DNA from: Asterochloris sp. CNOR1
Taxonomy: Eukaryota > Chlorophyta > Trebouxiophyceae > Trebouxiales > Trebouxiaceae
DNA: 64,000 nucleotides
Direction of reading: 5' to 3'
NCBI GenBank assembly: GCA_963969365.1
Contig: OZ017746.1
Span: 434,001 to 498,000, forward strand
Shown: positions 48,886 to 62,954 of the stretch, in pieces
Layout of the letters: each line of letters begins with the position of its first letter
Position numbering within the stretch: position 1 is the stretch's first letter
Notes under the pieces: generated by a model
What the model was told of the DNA's origin: nothing
The model's database searches: none
What the model saw: only the letters and a program-made list of their open reading frames with translations
Program-made: the position numbers and the translations under genes

Positions 48886-50108
48886 ATGGCTGATGCAGGT
48901 CTGTTACATGCTGTGAGTGAGGGCCTGCTCCACTGGACCTTAAGCAATGCAGCAGGTCAATGATGTTGCAGGCTCAGCGTCTTTGGGTCAGGCTGGGGCC
49001 GCCAGCCCTGAGCCAGAGAAGAAGGTTGAGGTCACAACCTTGATGAAATCAGATCCTAGGTTTGCTTGATCTAACCGCCTGGCTCCGCAGGCCCAAGCAT
49101 TGCTTGTTCTGATTATGGGCAATTCAACGTGCATGCTTTGAGGGCTAGTCTCTGCTGTACATCGATTCAGTGCAGTAGCCTGCAGCGTTCTGCTGACTTG
49201 TGGCCCTATCATTGCAGGTTCATTGCACGCCTCATTCAGCAGCTGGACGCCCAGATGCGGGCCATGGCACACGAAAAGAAGCAGCGCCAGGAGCAGATTG
49301 AGGAGGACGCCAAAGAGATGGCTCGTCTGGATGCAGACATCAATGCCCACATCAAGCCCAAACTGGTGGGCGCGAAGCCCTGGCCACAGCCCTGCAGAAT
49401 GTCAAAATCAGAGGGCAAGCAGCGCTTATGTGGAAATGTCATGTGTTCAGCTTCAGGCTCTCATTCTGAGAGAGCCAGCAGCGGCAGCTCTGCCTCAGCT
49501 CAGAGGGCTTCACAGTGAAGCAGAGAATTTTTAGCGGTGCAGACACTTTGCAGGCTCATGCCACAGCCGCAGCCCAGCAGCCAGGCTGCAGCACGGCCAG
49601 CACCAGTGGCAGACATGCCAGCGGACTCTGTCCCTCAATCAGGGCCCAGCGCAGCTACATGGTAACAGTGCAGAGCAGTACCTGTGCTGACCACAGGCAA
49701 GCAGCAGTGCTGGCACTGCAGGATGCTTTGCTGTCTGGTCTTGAGGAGAAGAGGAAGCTGCGGGACAGCCTGCGCAAAGAGCTTGAGAGCCAGACCACCT
49801 CCTTCACCAACATGGAGCGGGAGGCACAGGCATTGCTGCGGCGAGCCACTCAGGCCAATCGGAAAGTCACGGTGGGCAGAGCACAGGCGTGACCCTCGGC
49901 CACCATGGCCCTGCACCCAAGTGATTGGGCCATGGCTTAAAGAGCATCCGTTGTGCTGCAGCGTGCTAATGCATCTGGCATCCTGCAAGAGACACGGGGC
50001 TACAGCACAGTGCAGAAGACCACAGACCTCATCAAGGCCAGGCGCCAGAAGCCTGCTGCGGGCGAGCCCACACATAGCCAGCCAGCATCGCCAAGCCCCA
50101 CCAGCTGA
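48886..50108 (+). CDS. coiled-coil protein of unknown function
   Basis: Exon 1 is only 13 nt (48886–48898). Exon 2 (48972–49059) and exon 3 (49218–49365) follow in phase and give MADAGSASLGQAGAASPEPE, KKVEVTTLMKSDPRFIARLI and a charged coiled coil (QLDAQMRAMAHEKKQRQEQI). A middle exon is uncertain (49556–49670). An exon ending at 49871 carries DALLSGLEEKRKLRDSLRKE then LESQTTSFTNMEREA. The last exon 49962–50108 ends ILQETRGYSTVQKTTDLIKA, then RRQKPAAGE, with TGA at 50106. High helical charge and no hydrophobic segment suggest a soluble coiled-coil adaptor. I do not recognise the family. Confidence 0.7.
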
Positions 50109-50151
50109 ATCTCTGTCTTGTTGCTCACATCATATCAGACCCCCATCCATG

Positions 50152-50985
50152 TCATGTCGTCGTTCTAGCAAGTGTCTGGCTGTTGTGCGCCAGTACCACA
50201 TTAAGGGGCAGCTCTGAGTCCAGCATGCGCATAAGCGTGCCATAATCTGGGTTGATGTAGTCATGGTACGCCTCCTTTTCAAGGATGGCATCCACTACCT
50301 GCATGTCGCTGACCTGCCCAAACACTGTGTGGGCATGGCCCCACTCTGGGTGGTCCACAGCAGCAATGAAGAACTCTGCTGTGCCAGGGATGGTGCAGGC
50401 ATGGCCCCGCCTGCTGCAGAGGAGACGCAAAGCCTCAGCTCTCACAGCAAACGCAGTGGGGAGAGTGCTGTGACTTGACAAGGCTTGCCTGGCTGTCATC
50501 TCCCCTTCAAGCGGGGGAGTTTCCTTCATGCCCCCAAGGCTGCCCTGGAGCAACCCATAAGGTGGCCCAAATCCGGACTGCAGGCAGCATGTCAGGAGTT
50601 TTAAGCCTGCTTCTGCATAGCAAGCTGGCTGTGTGTCATGCCTGCACCTCTGGTGGTCTCTCTGAGCGGTAGAAGCGGCAACCTGAGCAGCTGGGTGCCA
50701 CCGCCAGCTCCTTGATGGCAGCCACGGTCCTTGGGGCATTGTCAGGCAGCAGTGCAACGCGTATCTGCAGGCAGCATGGGGCTGTTGCTGTGCTGATTGG
50801 GGACTGCACATTAGCAGGCCCACCTGGCCGTGGGAAGTCTGCAGATTGATGATGTCTCGATGCCTCTCACTGTAGCCAATGAAGGCCTCACGCCTTTTGG
50901 CTTGAGGATCAAGAGCTTGGGCCGATCGGTGGCCTGTCAATAACACTGCCCACAGCAGACACGCTGCCAACCTCTGCAGCGCCAT
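50152..50985 (-). CDS. cyclophilin-type peptidyl-prolyl isomerase-like protein, secretory
   Basis: Four exons with checked phases: 50985–50824, 50764–50648, 50577–50489 and 50413–50152, giving 209 aa. The N-terminus MALQRLAACLLWAVLLTGHRSAQA is a signal peptide. The cyclophilin fold follows: IRVALLPDNAPRTVAAIKEL, CRFYRSE (in place of FHR), GPPYGLLQGSLGG, RGHACTIPGTAEFFIA and HAHTVFGQVSDMQVVD. The canonical GSQFF segment reads GTAEFF, so the catalytic glutamine is replaced and isomerase activity is doubtful. Intron 3 (50414–50488) has a GC donor (CAG|GCAAGC) needed for frame. It lies tail to tail with the coiled-coil gene, with 43 bp between stop codons. Confidence 0.9.
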   Translation of the reverse strand: MALQRLAACLLWAVLLTGHRSAQALDPQAKRREAFIGYSERHRDIINLQTSHGQVGLLMCSPQSAQQQPHAACRYALHCCLTMPQGPWLPSRSWRWHPAAQVAASTAQRDHQRCRHDTQPACYAEAGLKLLTCCLQSGFGPPYGLLQGSLGGMKETPPLEGEMTARQALSSHSTLPTAFAVRAEALRLLCSRRGHACTIPGTAEFFIAAVDHPEWGHAHTVFGQVSDMQVVDAILEKEAYHDYINPDYGTLMRMLDSELPLNVVLAHNSQTLARTTT

Positions 50986-51308
50986 CTGCGACACTGCACT
51001 ACATTACAAAGGTCATGCGAGCCCGAGGTATACTTGGAACTTTGACCGACCTCCCATGACAGCCAGGGGACAGGCAGAGCAGGTGACTTTGATTTGCAGC
51101 TTCACTGCTCTCAGCTGGTGCCCACTAATACTAGTGTCGACCATGGCATGCAGGTCAGACACGAACTGGTGCAGGCTGTGCAGGGCGCACATTATGTGCA
51201 GGCAGTTGATCTGTGCCAGCAGTGTAAGGCAGTAATCACAGCAGGCCAAGATAGTCTCACAGCGGCAGGGCCTGTTACTGGTCAAGCAAATCATTCTGCT
51301 GTCTGCAG

Positions 51309-51845
51309 TGCTCTCGCTGCAGCCTGGAGATGCCACAGCACAGGATATCCTGGCTGTGCTGCAAGAGAAGGTCCAGCTAGGTGAGTTTGCTGCGCATGAG
51401 CATTCTGCTTCCTCAGCCTGAATGAATGAACAAACATGTGATGCTGCCTGCAGATGCAGAGTCTGATGTGGCTGAGGACGATGATGAAGCTTCCTCAGAA
51501 CAAGACAGGTCCAGCAGCGAGGTACAGTGCTGCCCAGACTTTTGAACATATGCCGCTGCTGCCTCAGCTGACCCATAGGCTGCTTCCTCACAGCAGGAAG
51601 ACAGCAAGGACTCGATCGGGAGGCAGGCTTCTGGCGATGCGCAATCTGAAGAGGACACTGATGGCGTGCAGCCGCCAGCTAAGACGCCGCCAAAGCAGTG
51701 CACCCGCCTGCAGGAGGGGCACCCTGCAGCACCCGGCTCTGCAGAGGGCCGCATGCAGCTGAGGCAGGCGCTCAGGGATCAGATTGAGGACCTGAGGGTG
51801 CAGCAGGCAGCAGCAGCCATGCAGAAGTTGAACCCACTCTTGTGA
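51309..51845 (+). CDS. small acidic protein, 3' part of an unrecognised gene
   Basis: Three phase-matched exons: 51309–51380 (LSLQPGDATAQDILAVLQEK), 51454–51521 (DAESDVAEDDDEASSEQDRS) and 51594–51845, ending QALRDQIEDLRVQQAAAAMQ, then KLNPLL, with TGA at 51843. The middle is strongly acidic and Ser-rich and the end is a short coiled coil. Earlier exons must exist (the first listed exon begins in phase 1) but cannot be fixed; ATG 51052 is a candidate start. Function unknown. Confidence 0.55.
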
Positions 51846-52704
51846 GGCTGGCTTGAGGTGGTGTGTAGATCACATTGCTTTGCCAACAACCATCACCTCA
51901 GGTCAGCAGCCATGAGTTTCTGCTGCCCATTCCCTCTCACATGTATGTAGTTCGTGAGGGCAAGCCGGCACTGCTGTCTCCATCGCATCATGAGGCCTCT
52001 ACGAGCAGCAATGCAGCATGCATGCTGCCAGACCATAGCTGCAACAATGCATACAGACAAGAGAATAATTCCTGTCCTTTAGCTTTAATGGCAGCAGTGG
52101 ATATATGGTAGCAATGTTGCTCAAGCTTGTGTTTGCAGCTTGCCATTGCTGTCTTGGAGTGGAGCACACATTGCAGAACTTATGCTTTTGGTGGGGCTGA
52201 CATGCTGTTCAAAAAGCACGGCACATGCTGGTCTACGGGATTGGAGCAAGCAACACAGACTGCACCCCCATTGATGGTGTTAGTGGCCGGTAAGGCTGCC
52301 TGCAGGGCTTAGGAGCAGCAAAATGCAAATGCAGGTCTCATCATGTCCCAGAAGTCATAATTGTCCATCACCTGCTGAGTTTGTCTGTGCCCCGCCAGGA
52401 ACAAGTCTGGAGCTCACTGGATAACAATATCCATCCTTTGGGAAGTGCGCACTGCCTATTGCATTTGTATGACATGCACATGTCAATGTTCGCAAAGAGG
52501 TTGTATTCAAGCAATGACACAAAGTCAGGGCATGCGCAGGAATGAAATCAGGAAACTGGATAACTTATCTATCAGCATGCCAGATGTATTTAGGTGTTCA
52601 TGCCGCTGCAGCGTGCAGGTCTCCTGAAAGGAGACGGTAAGGATCATATGGACTGCTTCAGATATGCAGTGCTGAACCTCAACTTGTCTCAGCTGCTGCC
52701 ACAG
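51846..52704. other. intergenic, no gene seen
   Basis: Converging 3' ends of the acidic gene (plus) and the large minus-strand gene. The sequence is richer in A and T than its surroundings, and I see no open frame, RNA gene or repeat that I would support. Confidence 0.55.
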
Positions 52705-55700
52705 TCAGCTGCCTCCCGACGCGCTGCTGGACGCCCCATAGGCTGGTGATTGCCTGCCTGTGCTGCTGCCCGCTGCATCCAGTGTGTGGGCCCCGGTACC
52801 CACAACCCCTCCTGCAGCCTCTGGCGTGGGCACTTGGGGGCTGGCAGCCCCCTCCCCAGAACTTGGGGTGGGCAGGGCTGTGCTGTAGCCTCTCTCGCTG
52901 GCCACCATGCTGGCAGCATCTCCCCCGTCCCCAGGCTCGCTGCCACCATCTTCCCCATCCCCAGCCTTGCTGGCAGCAGCCGAGGCTGCCGCGCCCTGCT
53001 GCTGCGCTGTCTCAGGCGTGTGGGCGCCACCACTGCCGGTCCCCTCCTGCTGCGTGCCACTTCTCGCCTCTGCAGCAGCGCCCGCTCCTGCTTCTGGAGC
53101 CTCGCTGGAGCTATTTGCGGAGGTGCCACCCTGCCGCTCCTGTGCCAGAGCCTCCCAGTCCTCCATGGGCATGTCTGCCAGGGCAGCCAGGGCTGACCGC
53201 AGGCGGGAGTTCTTTGTCTCCATGCCAGGGGCCTTGCTGCTGCCGCTGCCATCTTCGTGCCAGGGCTCTGCAGTGTGTCAGCACAGTGTCAGTCTGCAGC
53301 AGGAAGTAGGGGCAGCGATTGAGTGATGCTCTCTGTTCCCAACTGCAGCCATGTAGATCGCAGAGCAGCAACCTTCAGCACCACACGTCTGCCTGCATGC
53401 ACACTGCGGTACAGCAGTGCTGATGGTTGAGGGCACAGTCCCAATTGAATAAAACCAGGTCAACTGCTCTCCCTCCTGCACATCAAAGATTCAGGTCACC
53501 TGCTTGCCAGTGGAGCGGCTGCACAAAAGGCTGCCCAGACGCCCACAGCTAGGTGCAGAAAGTGAGTGCCACCTGCGCTGCCAGCAGGAACAGCTGTGCC
53601 TGAGGCCCCACGTCAAGGCCCCACCAGCTCACCTGAAAAGTCTAGTGGGCTGGCAGAGGACGAAACATGCCAGTGGATCTGCAGGTCCGCACTGCGCCCA
53701 CGCCCCACAGCTGCCGCAGGGGCCGGTGCCGCCTCGTCCTGCTCCCCTGCTGCCTCAGCACCACGCTTGGCCTTGAGCTTGCGCCTGCGGCCCATCACGG
53801 GCTGGAAGGCGTCGTCAGAGTCCCCTCTGCCAGGCACGAAGGCGGCGGCAGGCATGGGGGTGCCTGCAGCGCTGCTGCCGGCTGCTGCTGCCAAGCTGGG
53901 GGCTGTCCCCAGCCGGGACTGCTGCCCTGCTGGGGTCTGGGCTTGCGCCCTGGCACTTTCGGCATTACGCTTGGTCCACTGGCGATCTATCTGCAGGCCC
54001 AAGTGGGTGGCGATCAGCCACGGTCTCAAGATGGCGGCTTGATTGCAACTGAAACAGGCAGGTGGACCGTCAGACCAGAAGTCGTCTGTACCAGGCAGTG
54101 CTGACGTCACAGCTTCCAGAGCAGGCACCTTCAGAGCGCCTGGGGTCCTTGTGAAGCCGCTCTGCAGCAAGAGGGTTAGGACAGCTTAGGGTCCCAGCAG
54201 GGGACCGTCACTCAGCAGGGAGCAAGATGCGTCCAGCCACCACAGCAGAGCACAAGCAGCGCGACGTGAGGCTGCAGCAGGCTTGCTAGCATCCTCACCA
54301 CACAACAGCCCCCAGGCTATGAAGCAGCAGACGAGCCTGAACCCACCAGGGAGACCCCACGAACGCCACCCCCTACAGCCTGCTGCAGCCTCACCACAGC
54401 AGCATCCCCAGACTCTGAAGTAGCAGACAAGCCTGTACGCACCATGAAGACCCCACGAACGCCACCCCCTAGGGAGTCCAGTGCCTCCTGCAGGAGTGCT
54501 GGTGAGGTGAATCGCACAATGACCTCAGGCGCCCCATGTACCCACTCCATGCGGTACTGCCCCTCCCACTGCTTCAGGAACCAGGCCAAGTCCACGTTCT
54601 GCATGGCACAGGAAAGGAGGCAGGTCAGTGAGGTGTGAAGGGATTCACTGAGTAGGCAACAGGTCATGTGGTCACCTCTGCTCCCACAGCTACAATACGT
54701 TTTGGAACGCACAGGGAAAGTGGCAGGTCAGAGGGATGTTCGTGAGGCCAATGTTGGTCGGCAGTGAACCATGCTGTGCTAGCCCTCCAGGCACCTGGCC
54801 ATGTCAACATTCTGCAGGGCACGGGGCCCAGAAAGGCAGGTCGGCTGCATGACATCGAAGCAATTTCTCAGAAGATGCTGCCAGCAGACCCACATGCAAG
54901 CCCTTCCAAAGGTCGCACGCCGGCATGGCAGCGCCAGCAGCTGTCTCAGCAGAGCACCTTGACAGCCTTGTCACCAAGTGCTTGTTGCAGATAGCCCCGG
55001 CAAGTTTGCGGCACCAGTACGCCTCTGAAGCAGAGCGCATCTGTGCTTCTGGTACATCACAGCACGCACCATGCTGGACAACAGACCTGCTGCACCCAGC
55101 ACCCCATGTCACCAGATGACGAGCCTTGGCACTCACCGCCTGCACCTCGATCAGCTGGAGGCAGCTCTGGTCCTCCTGGGCACTGACTGCAGAGAGAGCC
55201 TCCATCTCCCCTCGCGGCATTGTCTGGGCCACCTCAGACAGCAGCCTACATTGCAAGAAGTGTAGGCTGGCAAGTGCACTGCCCCAGTCTCACCAGCCGA
55301 GTGGGCTGCTGCCACAGAGCATTCTGGTGTGCCACGCAGCAGATGCGGCTGCGTGGTGCCTGTGCAGGTACATGCACAGCACCTGTGATGCAGGTGGCCC
55401 CAGCCTGGGAGCAGCCCTATTCCACTGCCAAGCACCACACATGCACAGGCAGAACACCGCACATCTCAGGTTGGCCACTGGCGGCCGTCTTGAACAGCGA
55501 CACGTAGCGAGCCGGCTCCTGCTTGAAGCTGCATGAAGTGAAGTTGTAGATGGAGGCCAGCTGGTGCACCAAGGTACGATCCTTGTGGGGCATGGCCTCC
55601 AGGCCATGCCGCTGGTGGTCCTTGTCGGCCAGGAAAGCTGCAAAGGCCTGCTCCAGCTTAGCGATGAAGGGGCGAGATTGGACAGCTGCCACCAGCAGGC

Positions 55701-58700
55701 TGCGTGGGTATAGTGTCGCCAGCCTGCATGGGCAGTCGTGCAACAGGTGGACCATCAGTCAGGCTGTAAAGAGTAGATAATGAAGGCTGGATGGCGGCAA
55801 CAAGTTGCGTGGGTGAAAAGAAGTGAAACTGCATGAGGTCACAGGCAGAGAGGTTGGCAAAAGCTGGCCAGGTCACCCATATGATAGGCATTGCAGCAGG
55901 GCAGGCAGCTACAAGTGTCCAAGCTGACATCAAGGGTCATGCAGCTGAGTTATGCAGCGCCAAAGGGACAGCATATGCTCCACATTTGACGCTTACCTGT
56001 ATCTGGCGAATAGAGTGCTGCCCACACATGTCTGTGGGCCAGTGCATACCAACTTGCTGCCTGGATCATGTTCTTTAAGGTGACCCACCAGCATTGTACC
56101 TGACAGTGCAGAGTCTCACCTTTGGCGGTCAAAAACCGGCACATGCTGTGCGGGGTCAACCACCCCAAACGCCCCTGCCAGCTGCTTCTGCCGCTTCAAG
56201 CGGTTGCACTCGCCATCACAGGCCAGTGGCGCCGCCTGCTGCCCCTCCACGACGGCCACGTGGCTGACGCGGCGCCCACAATGGCACTTGATCCGCTGGG
56301 TCACCAGAGGTGGGGGTCTGCAGAGCATGCAGGGCTGGCGACCTCTTGAACACATCTTGTGCCTTGGGTACGTCATCAAGTGACTCGTGGGTTCTCAAGA
56401 CAGGCAATAGGGGGCTGTTATGAGACATGCTTAATCCTCTGAAGGACCAGAGGTGGAGTCTCCCAATGCAGCAAGCACGTCTTTGGCATGGGCAATCTGT
56501 ACAGCTTACCGCGCCCAGTCCCACTGAGCAACAGCAGTTGAAAGCAGGTTGTTGCCCATGGAGGGAGGTAGAGCAACTTGCAGGCCAGAGGTCTCCAGAG
56601 AGCGGCAACACACATATCACTGACCTGCGCGAGGGGGGTTGCGCAGCACTGGGAGGCGGTATGGCAGCCACTCCCAGGTCAGGGAAGGCCTCCTCTGTCT
56701 GACCGCTGCCACCTGCCGGTGGTGCTCGTTGGGTCCCACTGACGGCTGCAGGCCCCACCTCTGGGAATTCGTTGTCATCAATCATCACCATGCCACCTGC
56801 CCAGGACAGCAGGAAGACGGCTCAGATGGAGAGCGCAGCAGACAAGACGCTCAACTGTGCCCCCTCAACGGCAGCCGACAATGTGCTGGGACATGACGCA
56901 CTTGCAGCAATTCTCGCTGCACTTTTTGAGCACCTCTTGGAATAATGTTGGGGCTGGGCTACCTTGCAATTTTGTCGTACACAGGATGCTACTATGTTCC
57001 AGATCAGGTAGGCACTGCACTCTTCCTCACCTTCCCCTTGCTGCCGGGAGCTGCTACGATTGCCTGCTGCTGCAGCTGAGCCTGGTCCCTGGGGTGGACT
57101 AGCTGATGCTGGCTCGGTCTCTGCAGCACCTACAGAAGGGCACAATCCAGCTTGAGTTGCTCGTCGACTCTGCAAGCTTTGTGACATGATGCAAACCTTA
57201 TGCCTTGCTTACACGTCCAGCTCATGTGGTTGACTATTTGGCACATGCGCTCTGCCGCAAGCAGCACGTCCTCAGCAGCGTCAAACAGGTCTTTGCAGGC
57301 ATCACCCTCAGTGCTGACATAGAGATGCACTGTGTGGTGGCAAGACCCTACCTGCTGCGGCAGCAGCTGGTGGACCTCCACCACGGCGTGCAGACTCAGG
57401 ACGTGACCCAGGGCGCGACCCAGGACGCAACCCAGAAGAGCCTGCCTGGTCCCCGTGCCTCCCATGTGGCCGGCGTGGCCTGCAGCACAGGGAAGGTGTG
57501 AGGGAAGAGTTGACAAGCAGGCCCTTGCCCACTTCTGCTGTTGCTCAGGGGAAAGGCCTCAGAACAGGAGACACTCCGCGACCGCACCACCAGACGTACC
57601 TCTGCTGATCAGGGTCCCTGCCAAGAGCACAAGACAGCAGGCTATCAGCGCCCTGCCTACCTCTGCTGCTGCTCAGGGGAGGCCACAAAGAGCTCGCTGA
57701 GAGGAACCACCCGCGCTCGTGACTGGTCCCACCGCGGCATGCCGCTGCTGTGCACCACGCGCTGATGCTGCTGCAGCTCATCCAGGGACTCGAAGGCCAC
57801 GTAGCTCTCCAAGCAGTTGCCCACCTCGCACAGGTGGTGGGCATACCTGCACCATGTGAAGCGCATGTTTCATGCACTCGGTCAAGACCACCTCCAAGCA
57901 GCTGCCCGTCTTGCCCAGTGATGAGCTTACCTGCAAAGCATATCCAGCTTCTCACGGACAACACTGGAAAAGCAAGACCATCCCGGAGGCCAGCTTATGG
58001 AGGAAGTGATGTCATGCTGTGGTGGGATCAGAAGTCAGGTGGCCGCAGCACTTAGCTGCTGGTGTGCCTTTGTGTTTCATGGTCTGGGTCAGGCTGAAGC
58101 CAGTACTGCTCAGCACCCTGCAAAGCAGTCTTTGAGGCCCCTGCACCATGCACTGCCTGTGACGCGCGGTAGGAGGGTTTCCAGCGAGTCAAAATGGCTG
58201 TGCCACCCCTAGCAACATTGCCCTGAACAGCAGACTGCCCCATTCACCTGAGGTGCTGCAGGAAGGCTTCAGGCTCATTGAAGTGGTTATAGTTGTCGCT
58301 GCGCTCGCAGACATGGCAGGTGAAGTGGGAGACACGCATGTGGTTATACAGCTCCTCTTGTGTGAAGTAGAGCTCCTTGCAGAAGCGGCACAAGGGGTGG
58401 CGCTCCTCAATGTGTTCCAGCAGCTCCGCATGGGCCATGGGTTGCAGCTCCAGGATCCAATATCGGTTGGCCTGCAGCAGCAGCAGTGTTGCACAGCGCT
58501 ATTTGGAGCACAGGGGTAGGTGTGTGGCTGCGCACAGTTACCTAGAACAGGTTCCTGCAGGTGACAAGACAGCCGCACGGCAAACCCAGCGCAACAATGC
58601 AGGGCATGACGGCATGCAGCGGCAAAGTTGGAGTCTTGGGGTGGGTGTATGAAGGAGAGGAAGGTACAGACAGCTTTGCCGTGAAATGCGCTGTGGAGCA

Positions 58701-61700
58701 GCAGAGACTGCATCAGGAGCCGTGAGATGGAAGGGGCACAGCTGTGTCCAAAAGAGGCCCTGACAAGGTGGGCTGCCTGGTACATCAGAGGCAGCCCACC
58801 TCGAGGCACACATGGCAAAGCCGCTGCGAATGCTCGCGCTGCATGTGCCGCTGCAAGCTCTTCAGGGAGGGGAATGGGTTTGTCCCAACAGGGTCGCAGT
58901 GGTAGCAGGCTCGCGCAGTCATCCTCTCCAGCTGGGCATGCAATGGCCTGCAGGCAGCAGTCACATCAACACCCCAGTGACACAGGTGCACCAGGCACAG
59001 GGCACAGGATGCCAGCCTGCTGGCTGTGCATGGGCTCAGCTGGCCTCTAGGGCTGCAGGATGACATAGCACTATGCAGCAGGCACATGCCAGCGATCATA
59101 CCTCTGGCCAGCCAGAGTTGCACAGCACAGTTTTGCACCAGTCACCTTGCACATCAGCTGGGGCAGCAGGGACTTCAGCAAGTGTAGCCTTGACCCTTTG
59201 CCAAGCCAGAAACGCCCCACACAAGCACAGCAGTCTGACAAGATGGCATCCTCACCAGGCTTGGGGCGACCTGCTGTCGTCCACAAACACGCTCAGCGAC
59301 CACTGGTAGTTGATGATCAGCTTGTGCAGACCTGGCAGGCGCGACTTGTAGTTTGACCAGTCTGGCACTGAAGGGCGCCAGACTGCCAGCACAACCTGAG
59401 GCAAGGCGTTCCCTGGCAGTGAGGTTTGCTGCTTGAGCTCAGCAATGGCATTGTGCTGTACAGAGCTCTGCAAGCCCAGGTTGTGCAGATTCCAAGAGGG
59501 TCTTAGGTCAAGCGCACATTGTCAGGGGCCGGCACAGCGTGGCCCATTGCACCAGCGTCAACTGCATCACCTGATGCTGCTCTGCTTTGCACAGGGGACA
59601 CTTCTTGTCGGAGTAGCACTCCCTTTGCTTCAGGCAGCACTCTGCACACACTGCCTTGTGGTTGCAGCTGCCCACTGCAACATCCTGCAGTGGGAGAAGA
59701 ACTTTGGTGAGGCTTCAAGCCAGCACTTGTCAAGCTGACACATTTAGGAGCACAGATGTGTTCTGGCTGCATGAGGGTCATGACAACAGCAGTTTCAGCT
59801 TTCAGCTGCTTGACAGTGAGCAGTGGTGCTCATGCAGTCTGTGTGCTTGCTCCTGCAACATTAGTCAACAAAAAGCAGCATGATGAGTGTGAAGGCAACT
59901 CACCTGCATTTCCTCGGAACAGACTACACAGGACGGTACGTCCACGCCCTGCCCTTCCATCTCGTCACGCAGCTTCTGAACAGAGACCACTGCTTCGCGC
60001 ATGGCAGCAAGTTTCTCTGCAGGGATGCGTGTCATGCTGGGCCGCTCCATCCGAGGCCGTAGAATCCTGCACGCCACCTCTTACGCTCCAATGACATGCC
60101 AGTGCTTAGCATACACGCACCGGACCACACTGGCTGCACATCAGCTCACACTGAGGCCAATGAACCCCTGTGAGCTGGCACTACTGTCACGCCATGACAG
60201 AACATCACCACATGGCGCCCCCACTGCTGAGCATGGTTTTTGCTGTGCCTGCTGGCCTTGAAGGACCTTCATGAACACCGCTGCTGCACGTCAGCCAAAA
60301 TGTCACTATGTGCTTTCTAACAGACCCACCTTAGAACCTCGTCAGTGTCAACAATTTCTGGCCCCTCTAATAGACTGGGCTGTTGTGGCGTCCCTCCGCT
60401 CGAGCTGGCATCACAGGGGCGCAGCTGCTCCATGGCCCTCCTGTTACTGCCAGAGCGCAGAGGCTGCAGCAGAGAGAGCCTTTCTGAGAGGGGTGACCTT
60501 GGCAAGCTTGGGTTGTGCTGCCTGCTGACAGCAAATTCAAGCATCTTTGACTGTGCATAGCTCTGTGAGAGCAAAGTGGGCACCAACGAGCATGATCACT
60601 CGACAGGATGTCTTGATCAATTTCAGGAGGACTTGCCGTCGAGGCATAGCAAGTGTCTGCGGAGTAAATTCAAGCAGCGAGAGCGCGCAGCCCAGCACTG
60701 CATGCCAGCCTCGCACCTGCCTAGGTCCCTCTGTGTGTGGCAGGGAGCGCTCCGTGTCCCAGGAGTCCCATGGGCGGCTCCTGCCACGTCTCCCAGTGCC
60801 GCCAGAGCCCCTTCCCTGCCTGCCAGCCCCAGCAGGCTGCACAGGCTCTGCACCCAAAGGGCTCTGGCCCCTGCCACGGCCACGGCCACCTCTGCGCAAG
60901 TCAGCTGCCTGCTCAGCCCCGCGCCTGCCGGCAGCACCAGTATCTCTGACATGCGGGTTCCCCTGGGGCGGCCGGCGGCTGCCTCTGCTTGCGTCAGCTG
61001 CCTGTTCGTCCCCATGCCTGGCGCCAGAGCCAGCCCTGCCAACATGCCGGCTGCCCTCGGCCTGCATGTTCTGCGACTGAGGAGTGAGCTGTCTGCCCCG
61101 GCCCTGCCCGGCCGCCCTCTGCGACTGCTCCATGGGGGGGGCTCCCTGGCGAGCACGTGGCTGGTACCTGCCCCTTGACGGGCCGGGCTCACTGCCGTCA
61201 GGTCTGCTGGCCCCACCCCAGTCAGCAGCAGCAGCTGCAGGCTGCTGCGTGCTGCCGCGCGTGCCGCTGTGGCCTGATGTGCCCTCAAACTGGTCTGAAG
61301 GTGGGAACAAATTCCGGCCATGGCTGTCCCCCATGCCTGAATTGTCCCGGCGAGCCCCTGCTTGCGCTAGCTGCTCCCCTGAGGGTGCTGCCTGGCGTGC
61401 ATGCGCAGGCCGTCTGTCTCTGGGAGGTGCTGGCTCAGCCTCAGCATTCCACTCACTGCTGAAGTCTTGCCAGTCATTGTCAGCAGCACCAGGTCGCATC
61501 CTGTCCTCATGCACACCATGGGAGGTGGCCGGGCCTGGCCTCCTGTGATCGGGTCTGCCATAGGTGCTGGCAGGACCTGGTCTGCTGCCGCCAGCAACAC
61601 TGGCTGGCCCAGGGGGGGAGCCAGCAGGAATGCCAGTCCCACCGTCACCCCTCCCTCTGCGGCGCCCTGGCTGCCCCCCCTGTTGGATTCTGTCGCTAGC

Positions 61701-61870
61701 AGGCAGTGCCAGCCCAGGAGTGCCAACTAGGTACTCAGCAGCCTCATCCTGAGCAGGAGACTGACTGTCCTCTGGCCTGGTCTCAGAGCGGCCCTGCGCC
61801 CGCTCAGCTGCCTGCTGCCGGCCCTGTCCACGCCGCCCCTTGGATCTCCTTGGACGCTGCTCTCCCTGCC
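52705..61870 (-). CDS. ZNF598/HEL2-type RING–C2H2 E3 ligase fused to an NFX1/FAP1-type C-terminus (R3H, RRM-like)
   Basis: Order on the minus strand: an RG-rich exon (61870–60718; e.g. RGGRGRGRGQSP). A RING split as SCVVCSEEMQ (about 59908) and GSCNHKAVCAECCLKQRECY, KKCPLCKAEQ (59580–59690). HEL2-type fingers: CYHCDPVGTNPFPSLKSLQR/HMQREH (58.9 kb), LCRFCKELYFTQEELYNHMR/VSHFTCHVCERSDNYNHF (58.3 kb), CEVGNCLESYVAFESLDELQ (57.8 kb). EFPEVG and EAFPDLG motifs (56.7 kb). Then IKCHCGRRVS and CDGECNRLKRQKQLAGAFGV (56.2 kb), the cysteine tail before the R3H of NFX1/FAP1, an R3H domain (LEAMPHKDRTLVHQLASIYN, 55.6 kb), an RRM-like segment (WFLKQWEGQYRMEWVHGAPE, 54.5 kb) and an acidic tail. The EAFPDLG-to-CHCGRR junction is phase-matched. 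HEL2/ZNF598 ubiquitinates stalled ribosomes; R3H and RRM bind nucleic acid. The first exon upstream of 61870 is unresolved. Two separate genes remain possible. Confidence 0.78.
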
Positions 61871-62223
61871 CTGCAGCATCAGCAAAAGCAAGTGCTGAGA
61901 GTCACTGATTTGCATGCCTCACTGAAATTTCATGCGACTCAGGTGCCTCTCATGGCTGGCGCTGAGTGGGGGCATCTACCTTAGGGAGCCCTCACACAAG
62001 TGCTTCCTGGCCACGCTGTTGCATGCTGAAGCTGAGCACGGACAGCTGCCTGGGCAACATATCATGTGATCAAGCCTTCGACAATGTCAAGCTTACCAGT
62101 GTCTCCCTGGTCCCGTTGTGTTTGCTGATCCATGCGGAGGCGCCTGAAGGTGCAGGCCCACCAGACGAGAAGAAAAGGAGAAGGACTTTTTCATTTGCAG
62201 GACTTCTTCTGCAGAGTGCACTC

Positions 62224-62954
62224 ATGTCTGCAATCGGCACTGACCCGTCACAGTGTAGATGTCTACTCAATGCCAGCACCACACGAGGTCGCAGATCACC
62301 CCCTGTGAAGTGCCATCAGGCACAGCATGAGCCAGGGATGTCCAGGCGTGGCCTGCTGGCATCTGGCCTGCTGGTTGCTGTGACATTGCCCTCCAAAGCC
62401 CAGGCAGCAGGTTTAGAGCTTCCGCAGCTGCCCAAGCTGCAGCCCCCTGACCCCACCAAGACCGGGGGCGCAGCCAACAGGAAGAAGCTTGCTGATGCTG
62501 AGGATACATTTCAAAACTCAGATCTGCTCAAGCGCATGAAGGTGAGGCGGGCACTCATGCATGCATGGCACCAGAGCCTGTGTGCAGCACAAATCATGCT
62601 GTGTGCAGGAGCGCACACAGGCAAACTCAAGACAGAATCGTGTTGAGCTCCAGGTTTGGGCCTGTCAGCTGTAGCAGCCTGCGCTTGCACACTGCTGTGA
62701 TGCCAGTCATTTGCCACATGCAGAACAAGTATTGCTACCGCCAAGCAGAGATGGGCGTGGGGGACTGTGGTGGCCTCAGAGTGAGCAGCATCACCGTGTG
62801 CAGCTTCAGGTATTTTTATTGAAGTCTGCAGATTTGGTTGTTCTGTACTCTGCAGTTGATTCCAGGCATGACCAAGTCAGGGAAGCAAAAGACGCCAGAA
62901 TGGCTGAAAAAGGTGTTGGGCCAAGAGGAGGGCAAGGAGGATGCAGCAAGATGA
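62224..62954 (+). CDS. thylakoid-lumen protein with twin-arginine signal
   Basis: Four phase-0 exons: 62224–62541, 62621–62653, 62724–62780 and 62856–62954, giving 168 aa. The start MSAIGTDPSQCRCLLNASTT is a chloroplast transit-type sequence rich in S, R and C. A twin-arginine lumen signal follows: MSRRGLLASGLLVAVTLPSK then AQAAG, with a typical cleavage site. The mature protein has a Pro-rich start (LPQLPKLQPPDP), a charged helix, then a small conserved-looking block NKYCYRQAEMGVGDCGGLRL, IPGMTKSGKQKTPEWLKK. Two cysteines there could form a disulphide. I recognise the plant/algal targeting but not the family. It faces PPME1 tail to tail. Confidence 0.82.

Follow-up and report, generated by a model that had tools for sequence, protein, structure and literature searches.

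Hel2 and Fap1 are the closest described counterparts of the gene reported here. Hel2 is reported to recognize ribosomes that collide and to ubiquitinate uS10 (PMC9831982). In two reviews Fap1 is described as an E3 that acts after Mag2 and extends the K63 chains on uS3; it contacts both the 40S subunit and mRNA, at the entry and exit sites alike, and it favors monosomes and senses stalled ones, whereas a clash with collided ribosomes is expected (PMC9953336, PMC9846516). NFX1-123 is reported to bind and stabilize an mRNA, for which its PAM2 motif and R3H domain are needed (PMC8067315). Arabidopsis NFXL2 is described as having NF-X1 fingers and a C4HC3 RING, without an R3H domain or PAM2 motif (PMC3207813).

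A single algal gene appears to draw on both kinds of ligase. Domain searches, pairwise comparisons, and reading frames together support the proposal, made in an earlier sequence-only reading of this DNA, that one phase-consistent gene has a front half of HEL2 type and a tail of NFX1/FAP1 type.

The gene and its predicted product

The genome examined comprises 56.4 Mb in 21 contigs. The window, the whole stretch of 64,000 nucleotides that was analyzed, corresponds to positions 434001-498000 of contig C1. Within it the fusion gene runs on the minus strand from 62133 to 52705. The model has 19 exons (4656 nt, 1551 amino acids) and 18 GT-AG introns of 43 to 538 nt, and it contains no internal stops; its splice sites were picked by hand so that the frame stays open. 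The extent first proposed, 52705..61870, ended too early, leaving out exon 1 together with eight codons at the start of exon 2. The uncertain points of the model are the exon 15 donor (GAT/GTGCGG), the join between exons 17 and 18, micro-exon 10, and the start codon.

The predicted protein consists, in order, of an RG-rich N-terminus, a C3HC4 RING, a HEL2-type C2H2 array, two EFP-type motifs, a CxC...CDGEC segment, an R3H domain, and an RRM-like segment. Much of this run, on one strand, had been read from the letters alone: the RING, fingers, EFP motifs, cysteine tail, and R3H domain are all present on the minus strand, whereas the RRM-like segment found no sequence match.

Exon 1 (62097..62133) supplies the ATG and residues 1-12, and exon 2 (60717..61894) the long R/G/A/P-rich region with its RG/RGG motifs; this N-terminal region occupies 405 residues and is followed by a linker (exon 3, 60330..60562). 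The RING (residues ~528-574) is divided between exon 4 (59904..60066), which carries cysteines 1 and 2 (CVVC), and exon 5 (59571..59684), which carries the remainder (GSCNHKAVCAEC...CPLC) and is where PF13920 and, below threshold, PF25447 register. A post-RING region (VVLAVWRPS...; exon 6, 59256..59395) leads to the fingers at residues ~640-800: the first region in exon 7 (58800..58947; FPSLKSLQRHM...CHVCLE), the middle fingers in exon 8 (58248..58471), and the last block in exon 9 (57661..57846; YAHHLCEVGNC...). The 18-nt exon 10 (57600..57617), an RG-rich linker (exon 11, 57352..57479), and a further linker (exon 12, 57031..57129) precede exon 13 (56625..56796), which encodes NEFPEVG at residue 898 and EAFPDLG at 925.

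The boundary between the halves falls at intron 13 (56318..56624). Exon 14 (56120..56317) encodes the cysteine segment, IKCHCGRR...LACDGECNRLKRQKQLAGAFG, and exon 15 (55463..55723) the R3H domain at residues 1032-1091. Exon 16 (55137..55245) contains a post-R3H segment and the putative first strand of the possible RRM-like fold, which continues in exon 17 (54443..54598). Exon 18 (53633..54161) encodes a C-terminal region, and exon 19 (52705..53267) the acidic, G/A/S-rich C-terminus up to the stop codon.

Within the gene, the edges of some exons recur nearby as imperfect tandem copies (77-83%), at 56287-56313/56430-56456, 54289-54375/54385-54471, 54594-54636/54697-54739, and 57518-57552/57646-57680; among them is a decayed copy of the exon 14 start inside intron 13 (ETPPLVLQRIK versus PPPLVTQRIK). 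Head-to-head with the fusion gene, an open frame on the plus strand (window ~62260-62950) contains MSRRGLLASGLLVAVTLPSKAQAAG, which to our impression resembles a plastid lumen targeting signal.

Relatives of the two halves

The domain search that had been proposed as a check returned a divided answer: R3H stands above its Pfam cut-off and zf-C3HC4_3 does so in the isolated half only, whereas NF-X1 and zf-C2H2_13 are unmatched. In the front half, zf-C3HC4_3 (PF13920) scores 29.0 bits when that half is isolated and 26.2 in the whole model (cut-off 27), and RING_ZNF598 (PF25447) scores 24.1 and 21.3, under its cut-off of 27 in both. The ligands of the RING read C3HC4. Neither zf-C2H2_13 (PF23230) nor PAH_ZNF598 (PF23202) is among the Pfam matches of the protein. 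Compared with the PDB, the front half finds generic RING ligases first (best BRE1, E 0.0045), and no Hel2/ZNF598 chain appears among its 46 distinct matches at E ≤10.

The nearer comparison comes from within the genome. The minus strand of contig C8 holds a canonical ZNF598/HEL2 gene (~68360-75191). It carries several DFPALGG/AYPALGG-type motifs, and its hand-joined pieces exceed the Pfam cut-offs for RING_ZNF598 (30.8 bits), zf-C2H2_13 (37.6 bits), and PAH_ZNF598 (45.4 bits). The single PAH_ZNF598 match in the genome is an exon of this gene. Its RING exon is likewise the sole match to RING_ZNF598, in a search that would miss the intron-split RING of the fusion gene; and the sole zf-C2H2_13 match, again a C8 exon, scores 19.9 bits, under the cut-off of 27 because exons were searched apart.

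The RING and finger matches between the fusion protein and this canonical HEL2 are colinear. With one 10-kb locus as search space and with the low-complexity filter and composition correction off, permissive settings for the E values that follow, identity is 36% over 50 amino acids in the RING (E 6e-10), 32% over 28 in the earlier finger, in exon 7 (weak, E 0.036), 34% over 29 in the middle finger (E 1e-4), and 46% over 56 in the last finger block, in exon 9 (E 8e-12). Measured over shuffles, the RING stands at 15.4 SD and the finger segment at 23.4 SD, and none of 2000 shuffles reaches either score. Judged by these comparisons, the front half is a diverged ZNF598/HEL2 paralog that lacks a detectable PAH domain, and, given the canonical gene on C8, it is not the sole ZNF598 of this alga. 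The ribosome contacts of canonical HEL2 may have been lost from it, in view of the sub-threshold RING_ZNF598 score and the lack of matches to zf-C2H2_13 and PAH_ZNF598.

The tail points elsewhere. Its R3H domain (PF01424, cut-off 26.8) scores 41.3 bits when the tail is taken by itself and 39.7 within the full model. A search of 177635 distinct PDB sequences places FAP1 isoform 1 (7zw0 chain sh, E 7e-4) first for the tail, followed by SPAG7 (0.0049) and KIAA1002 (0.29); 7zw0 we take to be the yeast Fap1-80S complex. Taken alone, the cysteine segment finds FAP1 as its sole, weak match at E ≤10 (E 0.053), and the R3H domain finds SPAG7 best (E 0.003), with FAP1 not listed. Aligned with FAP1 651-810, the whole tail lies 19.0 SD above shuffles (0 of 2000 reach its score), the part before R3H 13.7, and the R3H part 7.8, values somewhat overstated because the pair was picked from a database search. 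Both proteins have the cysteine segment C..EC..LKR.K.L..AFG followed by R3H, and this shared order is specific. The back half thus resembles FAP1 beyond the R3H domain itself.

An RRM-like domain downstream of R3H is a feature of NFX1. The corresponding segment here matches nothing by sequence in Pfam or the PDB; its largest exon, exon 17, is modeled by AlphaFold2 as helix-strand-strand-helix (mean pLDDT 80.4) with low-Z structural matches only, so that the tail possibly contains a fold of this kind. No PAM2-like motif was found in the protein by the pattern used.

A second, weak R3H occurs in a different gene on the minus strand of contig C7 (2586627-2586737; 25.7 bits versus the cut-off of 26.8), presumably of the SQS1/G-patch type. 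Against FAP1 it reaches 3.4 SD, and 17 of 2000 shuffles attain its score.

A separate NFX1/FAP1 gene in the genome was also considered; searches with PF01422 (the NF-X1 finger), the NF-X1 consensus, and the tail all ended without a convincing match. PF01422 has no match at E 0.001, a strict search that is also silent in 14 of 14 control genomes and so is no proof of absence by itself, and at E 10 it returns 15 scattered weak matches, none above cut-off. The consensus gives E 0.39 at best, versus 1.9e-28 over eight stretches for FAP1 itself, and the best match to the tail outside the window has an E of only 0.126. Within the fusion protein Pfam finds no NF-X1 fingers, and a motif that detects fingers in a piece of FAP1 finds none in 52-64 kb on either strand. 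The codon pattern for CHxGxCxxC occurs at 74 places in the genome versus 5 for the reversed control. By eye these places are scattered without a cluster, and the one pair less than 10 kb apart, identical letter for letter, resembles a repeat; single real NF-X1 fingers may be among the 74. Since the genome searches take exons apart, very short exons could hide NF-X1 fingers. As far as these sequence searches reach, the genome is likely to be without an NF-X1 finger gene.

Function, age, and the exon 13/14 junction

The best reading, and in our judgment a probable one, is a chimeric RING E3, the product of one nuclear gene, that has a HEL2-type front and an NFX1/FAP1-type tail and would act as a merged ribosome-stall ligase. 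The diverged ZNF598/HEL2 RING and C2H2 array would be joined, through the linker with the EFP motifs, to the part of NFX1/FAP1 that follows the zinc fingers. The HEL2-type fingers would bind the 40S side of stalled ribosomes, and the R3H tail would touch mRNA or rRNA, as that of FAP1 may; the RING would then ubiquitinate a 40S protein and so mark the ribosome. Given the reported roles of Hel2 and Fap1, the combination of Hel2-type RING and fingers with a Fap1-type R3H tail is most simply read as a ribosome-stall E3. The sequence-only reading had arrived at a ribosome-directed ligase with added RNA-binding modules. The combined protein is supported by the comparisons above, and the wording understates the case, since FAP1, the known relative of the tail, has a reported role of its own as an E3 that senses ribosome stalls. 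Against the merged ligase counts the absence of FAP1's NF-X1 fingers, which may be the part by which FAP1 binds ribosomes.

The fusion protein may stand in for a missing NFX1/FAP1, with the C8 HEL2 keeping the ordinary collision-sensing role. We can suggest only tentatively that the alga lost NFX1/FAP1 and that one E3 now merges Hel2 collision sensing with Fap1 sensing of stalled monosomes, so that it could read stalled ribosomes both singly and in collisions, or that the Hel2-type fingers took over the Fap1 role. Should the merged ligase be real, a natural fusion would tie together the Hel2 pathway, for colliding ribosomes, and the Fap1 pathway, for single stalled ones, and would suggest a use for FAP1's R3H tail even where NF-X1 fingers are absent. 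The gene offers a direct way to test a FAP1-type tail on the ribosome.

How old is the arrangement? The same biology could belong to an old, widespread green-algal architecture that has so far gone undescribed. This view is compatible with the merged ligase, and we give it a substantial chance, if somewhat less than an even one. Since each half has diverged well away from its relatives, a recent join is not required. Arabidopsis NFXL2 is reported without R3H (PMC3207813), a fact with no bearing on green algae. Prokaryotic and viral contigs, searched for relatives of the finger block and the tail, gave 50 + 10 and then 29 + 1 pattern matches, none of which was confirmed, and the same order was not found; algae would not be looked for in such collections, which therefore carry no information on the distribution of the fusion. 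Among open-licence papers on ZNF598/Hel2 with R3H or NFX1, nothing evidently concerns a fusion of this kind.

A less probable alternative, though one that keeps an appreciable minority chance, accepts the same fusion and places it in mRNA control: the R3H tail, like that of NFX1-123, would bind mRNA, and RNA-binding proteins would be the targets of the E3. NFX1-123 is indeed reported to bind and stabilize mRNA through PAM2 and R3H (PMC8067315), collision sensing could be left entirely to the canonical HEL2 on C8, and the N-terminus of the fusion protein is RG-rich. Yet the HEL2-type RING and fingers are retained in order, the pattern search for PAM2 came up empty, and the tail's best match is FAP1, which is reported as a ribosome-stall sensor (PMC9953336).

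Every version of the fusion depends on the junction of exons 13 and 14. Exon 13 ends at 56625 with CAG/GTCAGT, CTCTGCAG precedes the start of exon 14 at 56317, and both boundaries are in phase 2; the splice from AQPPSR to PPPLVTQRIKCHCGRR is phase-matched, just as had been read at the outset. The intervening 307 nt are an ordinary intron length for this gene. When codon scores are trained on the rest of the exons, exon 13 (+0.31 bits per codon) and exon 14 (+0.20) are positive in frame, and intron 13 is negative in all three frames (-0.40, -0.31, -0.37); this is a soft test, as the background was the introns themselves and stops were penalized, which biases introns low, and it has exceptions in exon 5 (negative) and in intron 10 (about zero in one frame).

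The same region could be divided between two neighboring genes, one HEL2-like and ending at ~56.2-56.6 kb, the other an R3H gene starting at ~56.3 kb, or the join could be an artifact of the assembly or the model. In keeping with a division, ATGs lie upstream of exon 14 in its frame (56376, 56355, and 56328), the exon 13 frame meets its first stop only at 56218, and the model's splice sites were hand-picked. However, because the exon 13 frame stays open past those ATGs, a pair of genes would be left overlapping on one strand, whereas the canonical, phase-matched splice favors a single gene, and 52000-62200 contains no N letters. Algae use TGTAA as a poly(A) signal. A poly(A) site between the EFP-motif and R3H exons had been named as a sign of two genes: on the minus strand of 50000-62500, TGTAA occurs only at 57213, within intron 11, and at 51008, and not between exons 13 and 14, a result that weighs little and does not discriminate, since none closely follows the predicted stop either. 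On the reading-frame and splice evidence, which is good though indirect, two genes or an artifact are very improbable beside one chimeric gene.

Comparison with known systems

The fusion protein resembles ZNF598/Hel2, as represented by the C8 copy, in its C3HC4 RING, its C2H2 fingers in matching order, and its EFP/DFP-type motifs. It differs in that RING_ZNF598 is sub-threshold and zf-C2H2_13 and PAH_ZNF598 are unmatched; instead it carries an R3H domain and a FAP1-type cysteine segment.

Plant NFXL2 offers a parallel from the green lineage, being a RING protein of the NFX1 group. The composition differs: Arabidopsis NFXL2 is reported to have NF-X1 fingers and no R3H (PMC3207813), whereas in the fusion gene R3H is present and NF-X1 fingers are missing. 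The RINGs differ as well, C3HC4 here and C4HC3 as reported for the NFX1/NFXL proteins (PMC3207813). Although it is without the NF-X1 fingers of NFX1/FAP1, the fusion gene shares with FAP1 (PDB 7zw0 chain sh) the cysteine segment followed by R3H.
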